Source: a virus. From it: a stretch of 21,796 nucleotides of DNA. Positions 4,306 to 10,730 of the stretch are shown here, piece after piece. The translations under genes and the position numbers were made by a program. The notes beneath the pieces were generated by a model. It was not told where the DNA came from and did not search any database. It worked only from the letters and a program-made list of their open reading frames with translations. The stretch is taken from IMG/VR virus record IMGVR_UViG_3300028392_000323, positions 1 to 21,796 of that record, one strand, 5' to 3'. How positions within the stretch are numbered: position 1 is the stretch's first letter; the number at the start of each line of letters is the position of its first letter.

Positions 4306-4382
4306 AAATCATTATTGGATTAATCTGTATCTCATTGATATGGTTTATCTATCAAATTAAAAACTCAAACTACGAAAAATGA
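4302..4382 (+). CDS. Predicted membrane micro-protein (26 aa)
   Basis: A 26-residue ORF: one hydrophobic helix (KIIIGLICISLIWFIYQI) and a polar tail (KNSNYEK). It is embedded between two 4-nt ATGA overlaps. The overlap pattern is the main evidence that it is translated, because an ORF this short would otherwise be unconvincing. Likely a single-pass inner-membrane peptide; the polar tail side cannot be assigned with confidence. Confidence 0.45.
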   Translation: MKIIIGLICISLIWFIYQIKNSNYEK

Positions 4383-4492
4383 AACAAACATTAGAACTAA
4401 TTAAATTCTTCTTTATTTCAGTCCCAGTATTCCTAGTTGTTTACTGCACTGCAATGATTTGTATTGAAATTAAAGACCTAATAAAACGATGA
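4379..4492 (+). CDS. Predicted membrane micro-protein (37 aa)
   Basis: 37 residues with a polar N-terminal dozen, then a long hydrophobic segment (FFFISVPVFLVVYCTAMICI) and a charged C-terminus (EIKDLIKR). A single transmembrane helix is predicted by eye. It is linked on both sides by ATGA overlaps. It could be a membrane-modulating early protein; a lysis role (holin) is possible but there is no endolysin nearby. Function unknown. Confidence 0.45.
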   Translation: MKQTLELIKFFFISVPVFLVVYCTAMICIEIKDLIKR

Positions 4493-4563
4493 AAGCATTA
4501 ATTGTCATATTGATTTGGGAATTACTAAAAGAATTATACTATTATCTTATAAAAAAACTATGA
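4489..4563 (+). CDS. Predicted membrane or amphipathic micro-protein (24 aa)
   Basis: 24 residues (MKALIVILIWELLKELYYYL and a short basic end), mostly hydrophobic with two glutamates and a lysine in the middle, so either a membrane helix or an amphipathic one. It is joined to its neighbours by ATGA overlaps on both sides. It may simply serve to keep ribosomes coupled through the string. No family recognised. Confidence 0.35.
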   Translation: MKALIVILIWELLKELYYYLIKKL

Positions 4564-4757
4564 AAGGACACGAGAATGCACAACCTGTGAGAATGATATT
4601 CCTAGACACTAAAGAAGAAATAGAGTTTAAATCAGTAGCCTATGCCACAAGGATAACAGGAGTAAATGAATACCAAATAAAGGAATCCTTTAGCCCTATT
4701 AAAAAGAAGCGATTTGAGTACCAAGACCGAAAAATAACGTTTCGTATCAAAAAGTAA
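4560..4757 (+). CDS. Hypothetical small basic protein (65 aa)
   Basis: The ATG at 4560 was chosen because it forms an ATGA overlap with the preceding micro-gene; the frame is open further upstream. 65 residues: beta-like N-terminus (PVRMIFLDTKEEIEFKSV), a short helix (AYATRITGVNEYQIKESF), and a basic end (KKKRFEYQDRKITFRIKK). The arrangement 'hydrophobic strand, KSVAYATRITGVNEYQIKES' is reminiscent of the small helix-turn-helix-like modules seen beside homing endonucleases (NUMOD-type), but that is a weak resemblance. It ends 14 nt before ninG, with a promoter-like box in between. Confidence 0.5.
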   Translation: MKGHENAQPVRMIFLDTKEEIEFKSVAYATRITGVNEYQIKESFSPIKKKRFEYQDRKITFRIKK

Positions 4758-4759
4758 CT

Positions 4760-4767
4760 TAGTTTTG
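4760..4767 (+). promoter_or_regulatory. Bacteroidota promoter -7 box (TAGTTTTG)
   Basis: TAGTTTTG fits TAnnTTTG exactly and lies 4 nt before the ninG ATG (4772). Transcription would then begin at or very close to the start codon, giving a leaderless mRNA. A TTC at 4741-4743 is in roughly the right place for a degenerate -33 element (spacer 16). The box starts 2 nt after the upstream stop codon. Confidence 0.5.
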
Positions 4768-4771
4768 CATT

Positions 4772-5143
4772 ATGGCACTACCTACGATTCCTAAATTAAC
4801 GGCAAAGGCTCAAACAATATTTAATCGATATATTCGTACAAGGGATTCACAAGATGGATTTTTTACTTGTATTTCTTGCGGTCAAGTTAAAGGACACGAA
4901 GTTATGGATGCAGGGCATTACGTTCCAGTCAAAGGAAGTTCTGCATTAAGATTTGATGAGTACAACGTTAATGGAGAATGTAAGTCTTGCAATGGCTTCG
5001 ACCAATTTCATCTAATAGGCTACCGAAAGAATTTAATAGATAAAATAGGCGAAAGAATGGTTTTACATCTAGAAAGCCAACATAGGCTAATAAAACGTTG
5101 GTCAAGAACTGAATTAAACGAAATAATCGAAAAGTACAAATAA
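4772..5143 (+). CDS. ninG: NinG-like recombination nuclease
   Basis: 123 residues resembling the phage lambda NinG (Rap) family, structure-specific endonucleases acting on branched recombination intermediates. Key features are two cysteine pairs, C33-x2-C36 (TCISCGQVKG) and C70-x2-C73 (ECKSCNG), the AGHYVPVKGSSALRF block (47-61) and the N-rich YNVNGECKSCN segment, as in NinG and related HNH-like zinc-stabilised nucleases. The C-terminal 40 residues are basic. It is shorter than lambda NinG (about 200 aa), containing mainly the conserved core. Functional partner: the ERF annealing protein upstream. It overlaps the next small gene by 1 nt. Confidence 0.83.
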   Translation: MALPTIPKLTAKAQTIFNRYIRTRDSQDGFFTCISCGQVKGHEVMDAGHYVPVKGSSALRFDEYNVNGECKSCNGFDQFHLIGYRKNLIDKIGERMVLHLESQHRLIKRWSRTELNEIIEKYK

Positions 5144-5262
5144 TGGCTAAACTAAATGCAAATGGCAAAGTTTCCTTTGGAGCAAGGAAAAAAGGCAAGG
5201 CAAAAAAATCTTATAATAAACATACACCAAAACCAAAACCTAGTCGTGGACAAGGTAAGTAA
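5143..5262 (+). CDS. Small highly basic protein (39 aa)
   Basis: It starts in a taATG overlap with ninG. Of 39 residues, 13 are K or R, together with G, P and S (GARKKGKAKKSYNKHTPKPK and a SRGQGK end). It is likely unstructured and nucleic-acid binding. Short basic proteins with the same '…KKGKAKKS.NKH…RGQGK' style are, as I recall, common next to ninG or replication genes in Bacteroidota phages. Function unknown. It stops 2 nt before the ParB-like gene. Confidence 0.55.
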   Translation: MAKLNANGKVSFGARKKGKAKKSYNKHTPKPKPSRGQGK

Positions 5263-5264
5263 CT

Positions 5265-5834
5265 ATGAAAATACAAGAAATCAAACCCAACCCCAACAAC
5301 CCCAGAATTATCAAAGACCACAAGTTTAAGCAACTTGTTAAGTCTATTCAGGATTTCCCTCAAATGCTAGAACTTAGACCTATTGTAATAGACGAGAACA
5401 ATATGGTATTGGGTGGAAATATGAGGCTAAAAGCTTGTTTAGAAGCTGGATTGACTGAAGTACCTGTAAAAATAGCTTCAGGTTTATCAGTGAAACAACA
5501 GAGAGAATTTATAGTAAAAGATAATGTAGGATATGGAGAATGGGATTGGGATTTATTGGCAAACGAATGGGATTCTGAAGATTTATCTGAGTGGGGTTTA
5601 GATGTGCCAAAATTTAATTTTGATAATGACGAAGAACCAGAAATAGACAAAAATTTATTAGGGAATACTTTAGATAAATATTTAAATAATAATATAAAAC
5701 AAATAGTACTTTATTTTGAAAATGAAAATTATGAACCTACAATGATAAGATTAGATTCTATTGCAAAAGCAAATGATTTAGAAGATAATAGTCAAGTATT
5801 GTTATTATTGTTAGAAAAATATGAAACAAAATGA
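5265..5834 (+). CDS. ParB/Srx-fold protein (ParB-like nuclease domain)
   Basis: 189 residues. The N-terminal ~110 residues match the ParB/Srx fold: KIQEIKPNPNNPRII (strand and 'N-P-R' block), FKQLVKSIQDFPQML, RPIVIDENNMVLGGNMRLKACLEAG (GGNMRLKA at 50-57, the GxxR-type nucleotide-binding motif), LTEVPVKIASG, then QQREFIVKDNVGYGEWDWDLLANEWD. Phage proteins of this kind usually lack the KorB-type helix-turn-helix, as here. They act as CTP/ATP-dependent enzymes or nucleases and often sit beside DNA methyltransferases or base-modification genes. The C-terminal third (about 125-189) is acidic and more AT-rich. It overlaps the glycosyltransferase gene by 4 nt (ATGA), so it is probably part of the same cassette; its exact role is unknown. 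Confidence 0.8.
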   Translation: MKIQEIKPNPNNPRIIKDHKFKQLVKSIQDFPQMLELRPIVIDENNMVLGGNMRLKACLEAGLTEVPVKIASGLSVKQQREFIVKDNVGYGEWDWDLLANEWDSEDLSEWGLDVPKFNFDNDEEPEIDKNLLGNTLDKYLNNNIKQIVLYFENENYEPTMIRLDSIAKANDLEDNSQVLLLLLEKYETK

Positions 5835-6730
5835 ATTTAGTTTTAAGTTTTTTAAAATGTGGCAAACAAAGCATACAACCATCTAATAAAATAGCCGTAT
5901 GGATTTCTAAATTATTAGAATATAGATTAATAGATACAAAAGAAAAAGCAGAATTTGCTTTAAATTATAATATTGATACATTAATAATTGTAAACGGGAT
6001 TACACTTTTTTGTGAATTTAGAGAAGAAGCTAAAAAACTAATTTATAATGCTAAAAAAATAATATGGATTGGGAACGACTATAGCATTAAAATACCTTCA
6101 TTATTAAAAAATAATTTGAATGGTAAATCTATAATTAGAATAGCTCAATATGATAATTTTGATAATATAAAAAATCATTATACTTTAGATTTAAATAAAC
6201 TATTATCAAAAAATGATATGCCAAAAAATATATACGATATATCTGGATTGTTTTATTATGGTGCTTTTAGAGAAGGTAGATTGAATAGTTTCAATAAATA
6301 TTTGAAATTTAATAAAAATTTAGATATACATATTTTAAGTAGTAAAAATAATGCAGAAAATTATTATAAAATAAATAGTAAATCTAATATTTATACAAAT
6401 AAAACAAACGTATTAGATGTTTTACCTAAATTTCAATGTTCAATATATATTGAAGATGATTTTTCTCATAAAAATATTATGACACCAGCTAATAGATTTT
6501 ATGAAATAATATCTTGTAAAACACTTTTATTTTATGATTACGCTTGTAAAAAAACATTAGAAAACGCAGGTTATTGGGATGAAGATTTTGCAGTTAATAG
6601 TCAAGATGAAATTATAGAAAAATTAAAAAATTATAACGAATTAAGAGAAAAACAAATATTAAAGTATTCTGAAAAAAATTTTAAAAAAGAATTAGATAAC
6701 GATTTCAAAAAAATATATTTTTCTATATGA
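5831..6730 (+). CDS. Predicted GT-B-like glycosyltransferase (putative DNA base glycosyltransferase)
   Basis: 299 residues. The N-terminal half has alternating strands and helices (NLVLSFLK; DTLIIVNGITLF; KKIIWIGNDYS), Rossmann-like. The C-terminal half carries glycosyltransferase-like blocks: GLFYYGAFREGRLNSFNKYL (139-158, resembling the 'YyGsfR.gR...f.kyl' segment of phage GT-B enzymes) and TPANRFYEIISCKTLLFYDY (218-237), equivalent to the 'P.NRfyEal..g..lf.D' donor-binding region of GT-B folds. Wedged by ATGA overlaps between the ParB-like and TET/JBP-like genes, it most likely glycosylates the hydroxymethylated base made by the latter. A capsid or lipid glycosylation role cannot be excluded. 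The gene is visibly more AT-rich than the terminase and capsid genes, suggesting separate acquisition. The family call is from motif memory, not a search. Confidence 0.62.
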   Translation: MNLVLSFLKCGKQSIQPSNKIAVWISKLLEYRLIDTKEKAEFALNYNIDTLIIVNGITLFCEFREEAKKLIYNAKKIIWIGNDYSIKIPSLLKNNLNGKSIIRIAQYDNFDNIKNHYTLDLNKLLSKNDMPKNIYDISGLFYYGAFREGRLNSFNKYLKFNKNLDIHILSSKNNAENYYKINSKSNIYTNKTNVLDVLPKFQCSIYIEDDFSHKNIMTPANRFYEIISCKTLLFYDYACKKTLENAGYWDEDFAVNSQDEIIEKLKNYNELREKQILKYSEKNFKKELDNDFKKIYFSI

Positions 6731-7626
6731 AAATAATAGAATTAAAATCTAAAATTATTGATTTATCTGTTTATAAAAAAAGAACAGCTTTAGATTCTGA
6801 CGCAGAACAATTAATAAATTATGATTGTTTGATTACAGAAAATGGCGTTCCTAAAATATTGTATGTTAAATTAAAAAATGATACTGACGCTTTGAGATGG
6901 GCAGTAAAAAATATCAAATATTCTACTTCAATTCGTTCTGCAGGATTAAAAACTCAATCAGCAATATTTGGTTATAAACCTAAAATAGTAATGAGGTCTG
7001 ATTTTTGTAGTTCAACAAGTATGATTAATAATTTCCCGAAACAACATTATTTTATTACGGAATATGCTAAAAAATTAACTGATTATTATAAAGAATATTT
7101 CCCAGATATATTTAATATACATGAAAAAATAGTAAAAGAAAAAATATTAAATGAATGGACTATAGAAAGCACACCTTTTACTAGCGGCATTGTTAATAAA
7201 GATAATGCTTTAAAATATCATCACGACGCAGGAAATTTTAAAGGAGTACTTTCAAATATGGTGGCTTTTAAAAGAGGAATGATTGGAGGTAGATTAGTTT
7301 TTCCTGAATACAATATTAAATTTGAAATTGATGATAATACGTTATCGGTTTTTGATGGTCAAAGCATTTTGCATGGAGTAACTAACTTTGAAAAAGAAAA
7401 CGAACAAGCGTATAGATATACTATTGTTTATTATTCGCTTGAACAAATGTGGAAATGTGATTCTATAAACGAAGAATTAAATAGGATAAGAAAGAAAAAA
7501 AAAGAAAGGGAATTTAATAGAATAAATCCTGAACATTTAAAAACTTTAGTTAAAGCTAAAAAAAATTTAGATATAGCTTCAGATAAAGCATATCAAGCAC
7601 ATTTTAATATTAATAAAAATGAGTAA
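6727..7626 (+). CDS. TET/JBP-family 2-oxoglutarate/Fe(II) dioxygenase (putative DNA base hydroxylase)
   Basis: 299 residues. The catalytic core (about 145-240) shows the 2OG-Fe(II) double-stranded beta-helix signature: H165 and D167 in YHHDAGN (the HxD iron ligands), GGRLVFPEY (187-195), FDGQSILHGVT with the distal iron ligand H216, and R230 in YRYTIVYY for the 2-oxoglutarate carboxylate. The order 'N..…HxDAGN…GG.L.FPEY…FDG…HGVT…R.TIVYY' fits the TET/JBP family, which oxidises 5-methyl groups of pyrimidines in DNA. A conserved-looking N-terminal region (SAGLKTQSAIFGY…RSDFC) precedes it. The C-terminal 50 residues are lysine-rich (NRIRKKKKEREFNR), perhaps contacting DNA. It overlaps the GT gene by 4 nt and terS by 8 nt. 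Substrate (thymine or 5-methylcytosine) cannot be read from sequence. Confidence 0.82.
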   Translation: MKIIELKSKIIDLSVYKKRTALDSDAEQLINYDCLITENGVPKILYVKLKNDTDALRWAVKNIKYSTSIRSAGLKTQSAIFGYKPKIVMRSDFCSSTSMINNFPKQHYFITEYAKKLTDYYKEYFPDIFNIHEKIVKEKILNEWTIESTPFTSGIVNKDNALKYHHDAGNFKGVLSNMVAFKRGMIGGRLVFPEYNIKFEIDDNTLSVFDGQSILHGVTNFEKENEQAYRYTIVYYSLEQMWKCDSINEELNRIRKKKKEREFNRINPEHLKTLVKAKKNLDIASDKAYQAHFNINKNE

Positions 7627-7963
7627 TGATAATTTAAAACCTTTCCAAAAAGGTGTAAGCGGGAATCCTACAGGAAGACCAAAAGGTGTGTTGAATAGTA
7701 AAACAAGATTACTTCGTTTATTGGAATTAGTTACTACAACTAAAAATCCAGTAACAGGCGAAATGGAAGAATTTAGCATTGCCGAACAACTAGATATGAA
7801 AATTATAGCTAAAGCAATGAAAGGAGATATAAGGGCTTATCAAGAATTGCTTGATAGATTAGAAGGCAGAGCCAAACAAACAAACGAAATAGAATTAAGC
7901 GGCGGTTTAAATATTACTTGGGAAGAAAAGAAAAACTACATTGAAAAAAAAGGAACTATTTAA
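7619..7963 (+). CDS. terS: Terminase small subunit-like protein
   Basis: 114 residues starting FQKGVSGNPTGRPKGVLNSKTRL, the 'FxxGxSGNPxGRPKG' N-terminal motif of the DUF5681-type proteins that precede large terminases in many phages. A helical middle (SIAEQLDMKIIAKAMKGDIRAYQELLDRL, 'kAlkGD..A...lldR..Gk') completes the pattern. It recognises phage DNA and delivers it to TerL; family members are small DNA-binding proteins. It overlaps the TET/JBP gene by 8 nt and terL by 1 nt (taATG). The assignment rests on the motif plus the position directly upstream of terL. Confidence 0.8.
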   Translation: MSNDNLKPFQKGVSGNPTGRPKGVLNSKTRLLRLLELVTTTKNPVTGEMEEFSIAEQLDMKIIAKAMKGDIRAYQELLDRLEGRAKQTNEIELSGGLNITWEEKKNYIEKKGTI

Positions 7964-9273
7964 TGGAACTATCCATCAAGCAAACAACTGCTTTAGACTT
8001 ATTAGAAGATAAAACAACAAATGAAATACTATTTGGAGGCGGAGCAGGTGGCGGGAAAACTGCTTTAGGTTGTTATTGGCAGTTAAAACAAAGATTGAAA
8101 TATCCCAATACAAGAGGACTAATTGGCAGAGCAGTATTGAAAACACTTAAAGAAACAACCCTTGTTTCGTTCTTTCAAATAGCTAAAATGCAAGGATTAG
8201 AAGCAGGTAAGCATTATAAGTTTAACGGACAATCTAGCCAAATAGAGTTTCCTAATGGTTCAACAATCCTACTTAAAGACCTTTACTCCTACCCTTCCGA
8301 CCCAAACTTTGATGAATTAGGTTCATTAGAAATTACAGATGCTTTTATAGATGAGGCTAACCAAGTAGATGACAAAGCAAGAAATATTATTAAATCAAGG
8401 ATAAGATTCCAACTTGACCAAAACGATTTAGTACCTAAGATTCTTTACACTTGTAACCCTGCAAAAAATTGGGCTTACTCGGAGTTCTACAAGCCACAAC
8501 AAGACGGAAGCATAGCAGACAATAAAAGATTTATTGTTTCGTTAATAGATGATAACCCTTACATATCCAAGCACTATAAGGAAAACCTTTTAACTTTAGA
8601 TAAAGTCAGCAAAGAAAGATTGCTATTTGGTAACTGGGAATATTCTTCTGACCCTGCACAATTAATAGACTATGAAAAAATACTTGATTCATTTAGGAAT
8701 GACTTTGTGCCTAGTGGTCCTTCTTACATTACTTGCGATGTGGCACGTTTTGGCTCTGATAGTACTGTCATTGGGATATGGAGTGGAATGCGTGTTAAAC
8801 TTTATCAATACAATGGCAAGTCGGTTGTTGAAGTTGCTGAACTTATAAAAAACTTTGCATTGGAGTATAAAGTACCTTATTCAAATATTGTGGTAGATGA
8901 AGATGGGGTAGGTGGTGGGGTAGTTGATATTCTAAGATGCAAAGGATTTGTAAATAATAGTTCAGCTTTAAAGAACCCAATAAGCCACGCTAAGGAAAAC
9001 TTTGACAATCTTAAATCACAATGCTATTATAAACTTGCCGAATTAATAAATGATAGCAAATTGTATATCAATGCTGACGGCAAACAAAAACAAATGATAA
9101 TTGAGGAATTGGAACAAGTAAAACAAAAATACGTTGATAATGATTCAAGTAAAGGTATAATACCAAAGGATAAAGTCAAAGCAGCGATAGGTCGTTCCCC
9201 AGACTTTTCGGATTGTTTAGCTATGAGAATGTATTTTGAATATACTCCTAAATTCGTTGTCTCTGTATTTTAG
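7963..9273 (+). CDS. terL: Terminase large subunit (DNA packaging ATPase/nuclease)
   Basis: 436 residues with both terminase modules. ATPase: Walker A GGAGGGKT (26-33), Walker B with catalytic acid FIDEA (128-132), coupling motif TCNP (163-166). Nuclease (RNase H-like): CDVARFGSD with D259, IVVDEDGVGGG with D312/D314, and PDFSDCLAM with D414/D417, the three acidic clusters that bind metal. TerL docks on the portal, pumps DNA into the prohead and cuts it at termination. Length is normal for the family. It abuts terS upstream and precedes the portal after a 35-nt gap containing a promoter-like box. Confidence 0.95.
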   Translation: MELSIKQTTALDLLEDKTTNEILFGGGAGGGKTALGCYWQLKQRLKYPNTRGLIGRAVLKTLKETTLVSFFQIAKMQGLEAGKHYKFNGQSSQIEFPNGSTILLKDLYSYPSDPNFDELGSLEITDAFIDEANQVDDKARNIIKSRIRFQLDQNDLVPKILYTCNPAKNWAYSEFYKPQQDGSIADNKRFIVSLIDDNPYISKHYKENLLTLDKVSKERLLFGNWEYSSDPAQLIDYEKILDSFRNDFVPSGPSYITCDVARFGSDSTVIGIWSGMRVKLYQYNGKSVVEVAELIKNFALEYKVPYSNIVVDEDGVGGGVVDILRCKGFVNNSSALKNPISHAKENFDNLKSQCYYKLAELINDSKLYINADGKQKQMIIEELEQVKQKYVDNDSSKGIIPKDKVKAAIGRSPDFSDCLAMRMYFEYTPKFVVSVF

Positions 9274-9284
9274 TATAAAATAAC

Positions 9285-9292
9285 TAACTTTG
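9285..9292 (+). promoter_or_regulatory. Bacteroidota promoter -7 box (TAACTTTG)
   Basis: An exact TAnnTTTG match in the 35-nt gap between terL and the portal gene, 16 nt before the portal ATG (9309). A TTG at 9257-9259 is 25 nt upstream, slightly outside the usual 17-23 spacing. Would start a transcription unit for portal and head genes with a short leader of about 10 nt. Confidence 0.45.
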
Positions 9293-9308
9293 ACTAAATA
9301 TTAATAAT

Positions 9309-10730
9309 ATGGCTATTTGGGATTTCTTATCCAAGAAAAAAATTTCTGCCGTTAAACCTTTGCAATCTGTTCTACCAATGACTGGTCCTTTAGGTTCAAG
9401 TGTTGCAATAAATAGAGGGATAGTAACTTGGCAAGGTGCAGATGCACAATCTTTTGTTAATGATGGATATGTTGGTAATGATATAGTTTATTCAATTGTT
9501 AGACTTATTACCGATAAAGCAAAACTTGCTCCTTTCGGTGTTTTTAAAGTTATTAATGAAACAGCAGCTAAAAAATATAAGGCTTTAATGAGCCAACCTG
9601 AAAAGATAAAGAATTGGAAAGATGTTTTGGAATTAAGAAGCAAAGCATTTGAAGAATATACAGGCGACCAAAGATTAAATGAATTGCTTAAACATCCTAA
9701 CGAAGAAGATTCTTGGGCAGATGTTGTTGAACAATGGTGTGCATTTAAATTAGTTACAGGTAATAGTTTTGTTTATGGTCGTCTTATTGAAGGTGGTGCC
9801 AATATGGGTAAGCCTTTAACGATTAATGTACTTCCTGCTCAATATATGGCTATTATAGCAAACGTAGAGGTATTCCCTCCTGTTGTTGCAGGGTATCAAT
9901 TATATTTTGGTAAACTTTGGTCATTTAAAAGAGAAGAAATTTTACACGATAAATATTTTAACCCACAATGGAATATTACGGGCAACCAACTTTATGGGCA
10001 AAGTCCACTCAAAGCTGCATCACGGACTTTAACACGTTCGAACGAAGCGAAAACCGCAGCAGTATCTGCATTTCAAAATGGTGGACCTGCTGGAGTATTG
10101 TTTATGAACGACGATAGATTCGACCCAATAAGTGGTGGCGAACAAGCAGCAGCATTAAAGAAATCAGTTAGTGAAAAAGCAGGTTCCTCAAACTACAATC
10201 AAATTGCAGTAAGTGGTTATAAAGTAGATTGGAAAGAAATAGGATTAAGTCCTGTTGAATTAGGAATACTTGAAAGTGAAAAGTGGGATATGGTTTCTCT
10301 TTGTAATGTTTATGGAGTACCTAGTCAATTAATGAATGATGCATCTAATAAAACTTTTAATAATCAACAAGAAGGGGAAAAGGCTTTAACACTTCGTTGT
10401 GCTATTCCTTTGTTAAATGAAATTAGAGATGACTTTAATAAGAAACTTCATACAGATTGGGGATATGCAAACCAACAAGATATATTTATTGATTATGATT
10501 TAACTGTCTACCAAGAACTTGAAGCTAATAAAGTACAACAAGTTGATTGGTTAGATAAAGCTTGGTGGTTAACTCCTATTCAAAAATATGAGGAAATGGG
10601 TATTCACGTTCCTGATGAATTAAGAGATGAATTAAGTAAAATATATATCCCTAGTAATTTACAAGCATTAGATACATTCCAACCAATGGAAGCACCAAAG
10701 AATCTTAACGACCTTTTAAATAATAAATAA
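9309..10730 (+). CDS. Portal protein (HK97 family)
   Basis: 473 residues with the typical portal organisation: N-terminal variable part, then VYSIVRLITDKAKLAPFGVF (start of the conserved core), VVEQWCAFKLVTGNSFVYGRL ('l..G+af..' block), TINVLPAQYMAII, REEILHDKYFNPQ, LYGQSPLKAASRTLTRS ('yG.SplkaA...i'), FQNGGPAGVL, and LCNVYGVPSQLMND ('fgvP..ll.d'). Twelve copies form the ring at one capsid vertex through which TerL pumps DNA and to which the neck attaches. The C-terminus (about 420-473) is a proline- and acid-rich tail. It overlaps the next gene by 1 nt. Length is standard. Confidence 0.92.
   Translation: MAIWDFLSKKKISAVKPLQSVLPMTGPLGSSVAINRGIVTWQGADAQSFVNDGYVGNDIVYSIVRLITDKAKLAPFGVFKVINETAAKKYKALMSQPEKIKNWKDVLELRSKAFEEYTGDQRLNELLKHPNEEDSWADVVEQWCAFKLVTGNSFVYGRLIEGGANMGKPLTINVLPAQYMAIIANVEVFPPVVAGYQLYFGKLWSFKREEILHDKYFNPQWNITGNQLYGQSPLKAASRTLTRSNEAKTAAVSAFQNGGPAGVLFMNDDRFDPISGGEQAAALKKSVSEKAGSSNYNQIAVSGYKVDWKEIGLSPVELGILESEKWDMVSLCNVYGVPSQLMNDASNKTFNNQQEGEKALTLRCAIPLLNEIRDDFNKKLHTDWGYANQQDIFIDYDLTVYQELEANKVQQVDWLDKAWWLTPIQKYEEMGIHVPDELRDELSKIYIPSNLQALDTFQPMEAPKNLNDLLNNK

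Follow-up and report, generated by a model that had tools for sequence, protein, structure and literature searches.

The stretch of DNA analysed here (the window) is a virus record of 21,796 bases, probably a fragment, in which three overlapping genes lie just upstream of the terminase genes on the + strand. Its relevant features are the following.

5265..5834, + strand: ParB-like protein, 189 aa (PHROGs, Pfam, relatives)
5831..6730, + strand: glycosyltransferase-like protein, 299 aa, judged GT-B-like and distinct from the TET-Associated Glycosyltransferase TAGT; exchangeable slot (weak Glyco_trans_1_2 match, phage homologues)
5847..6726, + strand: segment exchanged relative to the related locus L004 (blastn)
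6727..7626, + strand: Tet_JBP 2OG-Fe(II) dioxygenase, 299 aa (PF12851, AlphaFold2 model)
7219..7227, + strand: HxD metal ligands, codons H165-H166-D167 (H and D invariant in 67/67)
7372..7374, + strand: second metal-binding His, codon H216 (invariant in 67/67)
7414..7416, + strand: 2-oxoglutarate-binding Arg, codon R230 (invariant in 67/67)
7619..7963, + strand: DUF5681 protein at the position of the terminase small subunit (PF18932, 56.7 bits)
7963..9273, + strand: terminase large subunit (PF04466, 43.1 bits; 53% identity to that of Flavobacterium phage 11b)

The order ParB-like, glycosyltransferase-like, oxygenase had been read in a first-pass annotation of the sequence and was recovered here, both junctions consisting of an ATGA (5831-5834 and 6727-6730) in which each ATG overlaps the preceding TGA by 4 nt. 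The DUF5681 protein, which is outside the modification chemistry, and the terminase large subunit form a conserved right flank in relatives, the terminase being usually located 3' of the cassette. Its identity with the terminase of phage 11b supports the assignment of the window to a Bacteroidota phage. A small ORF at 678-1034 encodes a DnaA-like DNA-binding domain standing alone (Bac_DnaA_C, PF08299, 71.6 bits).

Searching Pfam with the oxygenase returned Tet_JBP (PF12851) as the sole domain, with 47.3 bits (E 1.8e-12) for a cut-off of 34.9, and 48.6 bits in a second search. The catalytic residues are intact: H165 and D167 of the HxD motif, H216 and R230 were present as first described and all four were invariant in the 67 distinct relatives. 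An AlphaFold2 model was obtained from a 25-sequence alignment (pLDDT 88.8). The first 26 rows returned by Foldseek with this model were CcTet, CMD1, NgTet1 and TET2, and VIA-align gave Z scores of 19.6 for TET2, 19.0 for NgTet1, 18.8 for CMD1 and 17.2 for CcTet, against 15.5 for the best non-TET fold, a bacterial 2OG oxygenase, and 13-15 for AlkB/FTO (up to 15.2). A PDB search with the oxygenase sequence alone gave no match, and profiles were needed. The annotation had made its reading depend on a Tet_JBP profile match and on a structure resembling TET2; both were found, and the oxygenase is a true TET/JBP-fold dioxygenase. The name 'queuine tRNA-ribosyltransferase', carried by phrog_6059 and by RefSeq entries, was rejected as a misannotation, because the proteins so named match Tet_JBP (for example at 807-1670 in L079 and 4911-5696 in L083).

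Relatives were collected by scanning viral contigs with the window's own TET as query, which yielded 75 loci; the family counts given here therefore describe its clade and not all phage TETs. In 58/58 loci having at least 1.8 kb of upstream sequence, a ParB-like gene was found at a distance of up to 3.5 kb from TET and in the same orientation, and most related loci share the 4-nt junction that precedes TET, indicating that the association is not due to chance. The ParB-TET pair is also present in phages of Mycobacterium, Gordonia, Rhodococcus, Arthrobacter, Microbacterium, Prochlorococcus and Pelagibacter, and a search of bacterial genomes recovered a single locus, in one Ignavibacteria MAG. 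The ParB-like protein comprises an N-terminal ParB/Srx-type domain and a conserved C-terminal part (IKQIVLYF...). It matches phrog_620 (ParB-like, E 1.9e-26), its residues 1-127 match phrog_498 (DNA methyltransferase, E 1.7e-27), and it scored 23.9 bits against Pfam ParB_N, just below the cut-off of 26.3. The phrog_498 match is consistent with a role as a DNA-modification helper.

The protein encoded between ParB and TET matched Pfam Glyco_trans_1_2 with 20.6 bits, under the cut-off of 25, and had no match in PHROGs. Its only full-length phage homologues were found in Escherichia phages EP_H11 and IME392 (27% identity). Since these homologues also match Glyco_trans_1_2 weakly and other glycosyltransferase families occupy the slot in relatives, the glycosyltransferase call is supported; from the weak profile match, we judge the protein to be probably GT-B-like. 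It gave no match to TAGT (PF20691) in Pfam and an hhalign probability of 1.9% against it, and appeared unrelated by hhalign to the slot family c10. Three viral scans for relatives returned the identical locus or nothing, leaving no alignment for modelling, and the resulting AlphaFold model (pLDDT 36.6) was therefore unusable. Neither the alignment of the window glycosyltransferase nor three slot families gave a useful match when searched as profiles against PDB. The earlier reading thus stands as to a sugar-transferase-like gene in the cassette; this gene, however, shows no detectable relation to the known TET-associated glycosyltransferase and fills an exchanged slot. In EP_H11 and IME392, the homologues immediately precede HMUDK_hel, a 5-hmdU DNA kinase domain, and a thymidylate-synthase-like gene is located nearby. 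In EP_H11, the homologue is part of a cluster (L110, 2289-7921) together with PIG-L (GlcNAc-PI de-N-acetylase-like), HMUDK_hel, a nucleotide-kinase-like protein and a divergent thymidylate synthase, which suggests an amino-sugar on hmU in this coliphage.

The content of the slot near TET varied widely. Counted by records, it held family c4 in 22, c5 in 20, c8 in 13, c10 in 9 and c82 in 1; the family of the window in 3, namely the window itself, L001, which is its own copy, and L002, which is identical to it; c5 together with c10 in 1; and none detected in 10, L029 and L032-L034 being examples of loci where a slot glycosyltransferase was undetected. Family c5 is TAGT, a GT-A enzyme, c4 and c8 are its distant relatives (hhalign 98.4% and 96.5%, respectively), and c10 is a GT-B-like family. 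Cyanophage MED4-184 has an FkbM methyltransferase in the slot, Pelagibacter phage HTVC112P has an FkbM gene after TET, and in L040-L046 a glycosyltransferase-family gene is found just 3' of TET and not in the slot. Two further loci were observed. In L038, the gene directly 5' of TET (8157-10004, 4-nt overlap) encodes a protein of 615 aa whose N-terminal part matches a nucleotidyltransferase (PF00483) and which might produce the activated donor. In L065, ParB and TET are 669 nt apart (4367-5037), and this interval, where relatives have a c4 glycosyltransferase, is possibly a broken glycosyltransferase gene.

Four TETs that are close in the tree (those of the window, L004, L003 and L013) are associated with four different slot families. 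By blastn, the window is 78.5% identical to L004/L005 over 5140-5846 and 78.8% over 6727-7890, with no match in between. The TET of L004 is 84% identical to that of the window; DNA homology with L004 stops 16 nt inside the glycosyltransferase gene and is found again from 6727 on, exactly where the start codon of TET begins. Such exact boundaries indicate gene-precise cassette exchange. ParB and TET make up the constant core, for which the glycosyltransferase would serve as a swappable decorator.

We propose that the Tet_JBP dioxygenase, with Fe(II) and 2-oxoglutarate, would hydroxylate, on its 5-methyl group, a pyrimidine that is already part of phage DNA; with thymine, the most likely substrate, the product would be 5-hydroxymethyluracil. 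Using a nucleotide sugar of the host, the glycosyltransferase would then attach a sugar to the new hydroxyl, and the bulky sugared base would block host nucleases. The ParB-like protein would most likely bind and/or open DNA and bring the oxygenase to its sites. The position of the cassette just upstream of the terminase suggests that it acts on DNA no later than packaging. That a DNA pyrimidine is first hydroxymethylated and then glycosylated, as put forward at first pass, is the best reading of a TET/JBP-fold oxygenase in a ParB-GT-TET cassette. We are rather confident in the general mechanism, in which a DNA pyrimidine is oxidised and then decorated; a post-replicative hypermodification cassette with thymine as its substrate appears probable, with appreciably less assurance.

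Which pyrimidine would be modified was approached through the genes associated with TET. The annotation had seen neither a C5-methyltransferase nor a dUMP/dCMP hydroxymethylase, and searches of the window, a partial record, with PF00145 and PF00303 likewise gave no match. PF00145 was detected in 2/45 same-clade records (the window and 44 others), both hits being the related pair L056/L057, and in none of the seven complete isolate genomes of the clade. A first set of 39 records had given these two hits, and Melnitz-3 was the sole hit in a second set of 21. The C5-methyltransferase-like gene of L056 (2524-3120) and L057 (9259-9855) directly follows TET and encodes 198 aa that match only the first 79 of the 324 profile positions. 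In Melnitz-3, an HhaI-type C5-methyltransferase adjoins a TET of the other clade; the split between the window TET clade and the TET adjoining a C5-methyltransferase had a support of 100/98 in a tree where MED4-184 and Melnitz form long branches of unsure placement. PF00303 was found in none of the 44 related records. Actinophage TETs of the same clade are followed by ADDT (PF18724, amino acid:DNA transferase) and/or the P-loop kinase PF18751. In thymidine hypermodification, ADDT and the P-loop kinase act after 5-hydroxymethyl-deoxyuridine. Taken together, the near-absence of C5-methyltransferases, the lack of thymidylate synthase matches, the hmU-tailoring neighbours and the position of the glycosyltransferase homologues beside a 5-hmdU kinase favour thymine by association; this indirect evidence points to thymine as a more likely substrate than cytosine and lends support to the direct thymine oxidation that the annotation had raised as an option.

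Caulobacter phage Cr30 (L103), whose TET belongs to the other clade and is annotated as 'putative SNF2 DNA repair protein', carries ADDT about 2 kb away and no C5-methyltransferase, which suggests hmU chemistry there too. The presence of ADDT outside the window clade counts against the thymine reading, although Cr30 also has a full thymidylate synthase. The residue three positions past the metal-binding Asp is Asn in the window clade and mostly Asp in the other clade. This Asn was considered as a thymine marker and rejected, human TET2 having Asn and Cr30, with Asp, having ADDT. The YHHDAGN and HGVT blocks highlighted by the annotation are likewise no guide to whether an enzyme acts on thymine or on 5mC.

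The main alternative is a cytosine route, in which a C5-methyltransferase of the host, or an unsampled one of the phage, would produce 5mC, TET would convert it to 5hmC and the glycosyltransferase would glycosylate the latter, as Burke et al. 2021 reportedly found for phage TETs. We consider it unlikely, while far from negligible. In the accounts of Burke et al. 2021 given by PMC12730594 and PMC11404850, 5mC is the substrate of those phage TETs whose activity has been demonstrated, one phage TET type having been described there. TAGT of the T-even phages T2 and T6 adds a second glucose to glucosylated 5hmC (PMC13216743). The Melnitz TET adjoins its HhaI-type C5-methyltransferase, L056/L057 have the short C5-methyltransferase-like gene, the Asn is common to TET2, a 5mC enzyme, and a host methyltransferase could supply 5mC to a phage known from a partial record. 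However, the C5-methyltransferase is missing from the window and from 42/44 other same-clade records, the seven complete isolate genomes included, and the hmU-tailoring partners occur within the same TET clade. Reliance on host methylation would moreover confine the modification to host sites.

Much less probable is that the oxygenase modifies DNA while the middle gene works elsewhere, for instance on a surface glycan, the base being plain 5-hydroxymethyl-pyrimidine or a further oxidised form. The weak glycosyltransferase profile match and the relatives in which no slot glycosyltransferase was detected (L029, L032-L034) would fit this possibility, but the 4-nt overlap between the glycosyltransferase gene and TET is conserved, the slot has been repeatedly refilled with glycosyltransferases, including TAGT, and the homologues of the window protein adjoin a 5-hmdU DNA kinase. 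Finally, an action on RNA, or a repair or demodification system rather than protection, is very improbable: the model also resembles AlkB/FTO (Z 13-15), but TET-family matches are clearly higher (Z 17-20), and both the ParB-like partner and the terminase-side position are DNA-related.

If thymine is the substrate, these phages would need no dedicated nucleotide pathway to have hydroxymethyluracil in their DNA and would use the chemistry by which kinetoplastids form base J. The exchangeable slot could let phages evade defences aimed at one sugar-modified base, and it would supply new DNA glycosyltransferases. The full proposal, that in Bacteroidota-type phages a ParB-guided TET/JBP enzyme oxidises thymine in DNA to which an exchangeable sugar is added, as a counterpart of base J with gene-precise swaps comparable to serotype switching, seems to us evenly balanced between right and wrong.

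Iyer reportedly predicted, in 2009 and 2013, the association of phage TET/JBP genes with glycosyltransferases and ParB-like genes. TET/JBP-ParB-GT operons are thus already known; the unclassified slot glycosyltransferase, the gene-precise swap and the indications for thymine mark the window cassette as a variant of them. The oxygenase shares with TET2, NgTet1, CMD1, CcTet and kinetoplastid JBP1/2 the PF12851 match, the HxD...H...R residues and Z scores of 17-20, but it is only about 14% identical, short, phage-borne and associated with a ParB-like partner. With the phage TET-GT systems that include a C5-methyltransferase, as Burke et al. 2021 is related in the two accounts cited above, it would have in common the TET oxidation of phage DNA as a first step. 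Compared with the C5-methyltransferase systems represented by the Melnitz pair, the window TET falls into another clade (100/98) and is accompanied by a ParB-like gene, the C5-methyltransferase not being found in the partial record. Many relatives of the window phage have TAGT in this slot, whereas the window glycosyltransferase has no detectable relation to it (hhalign 1.9%) and appears GT-B-like by its weak profile match.

Phages M6, ViI and phiW-14 perform thymidine hypermodification with a 5-hmdU DNA kinase and ADDT/aGPT-PPlase. Such tailoring enzymes adjoin the same-clade actinophage TETs and the coliphage homologues of the window glycosyltransferase. In these pathways, however, a relative of thymidylate synthase makes 5-hmdU at the nucleotide level, whereas the window phage probably oxidises thymine in DNA. 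Base J is synthesised in kinetoplastids by JBP1/2 and JGT, and its sugar is beta-glucose. The base-J-like mark envisaged at first pass is supported as to oxidation followed by glycosylation, the best reading, and not as to the name, which implies beta-glucose. The chemistry proposed here, from thymine to hmU and to glycosylated hmU, would be the same as that of base J, but it would take place in phage DNA, and the likeness lies in this proposed chemistry, beta-glucose being a feature of base J.
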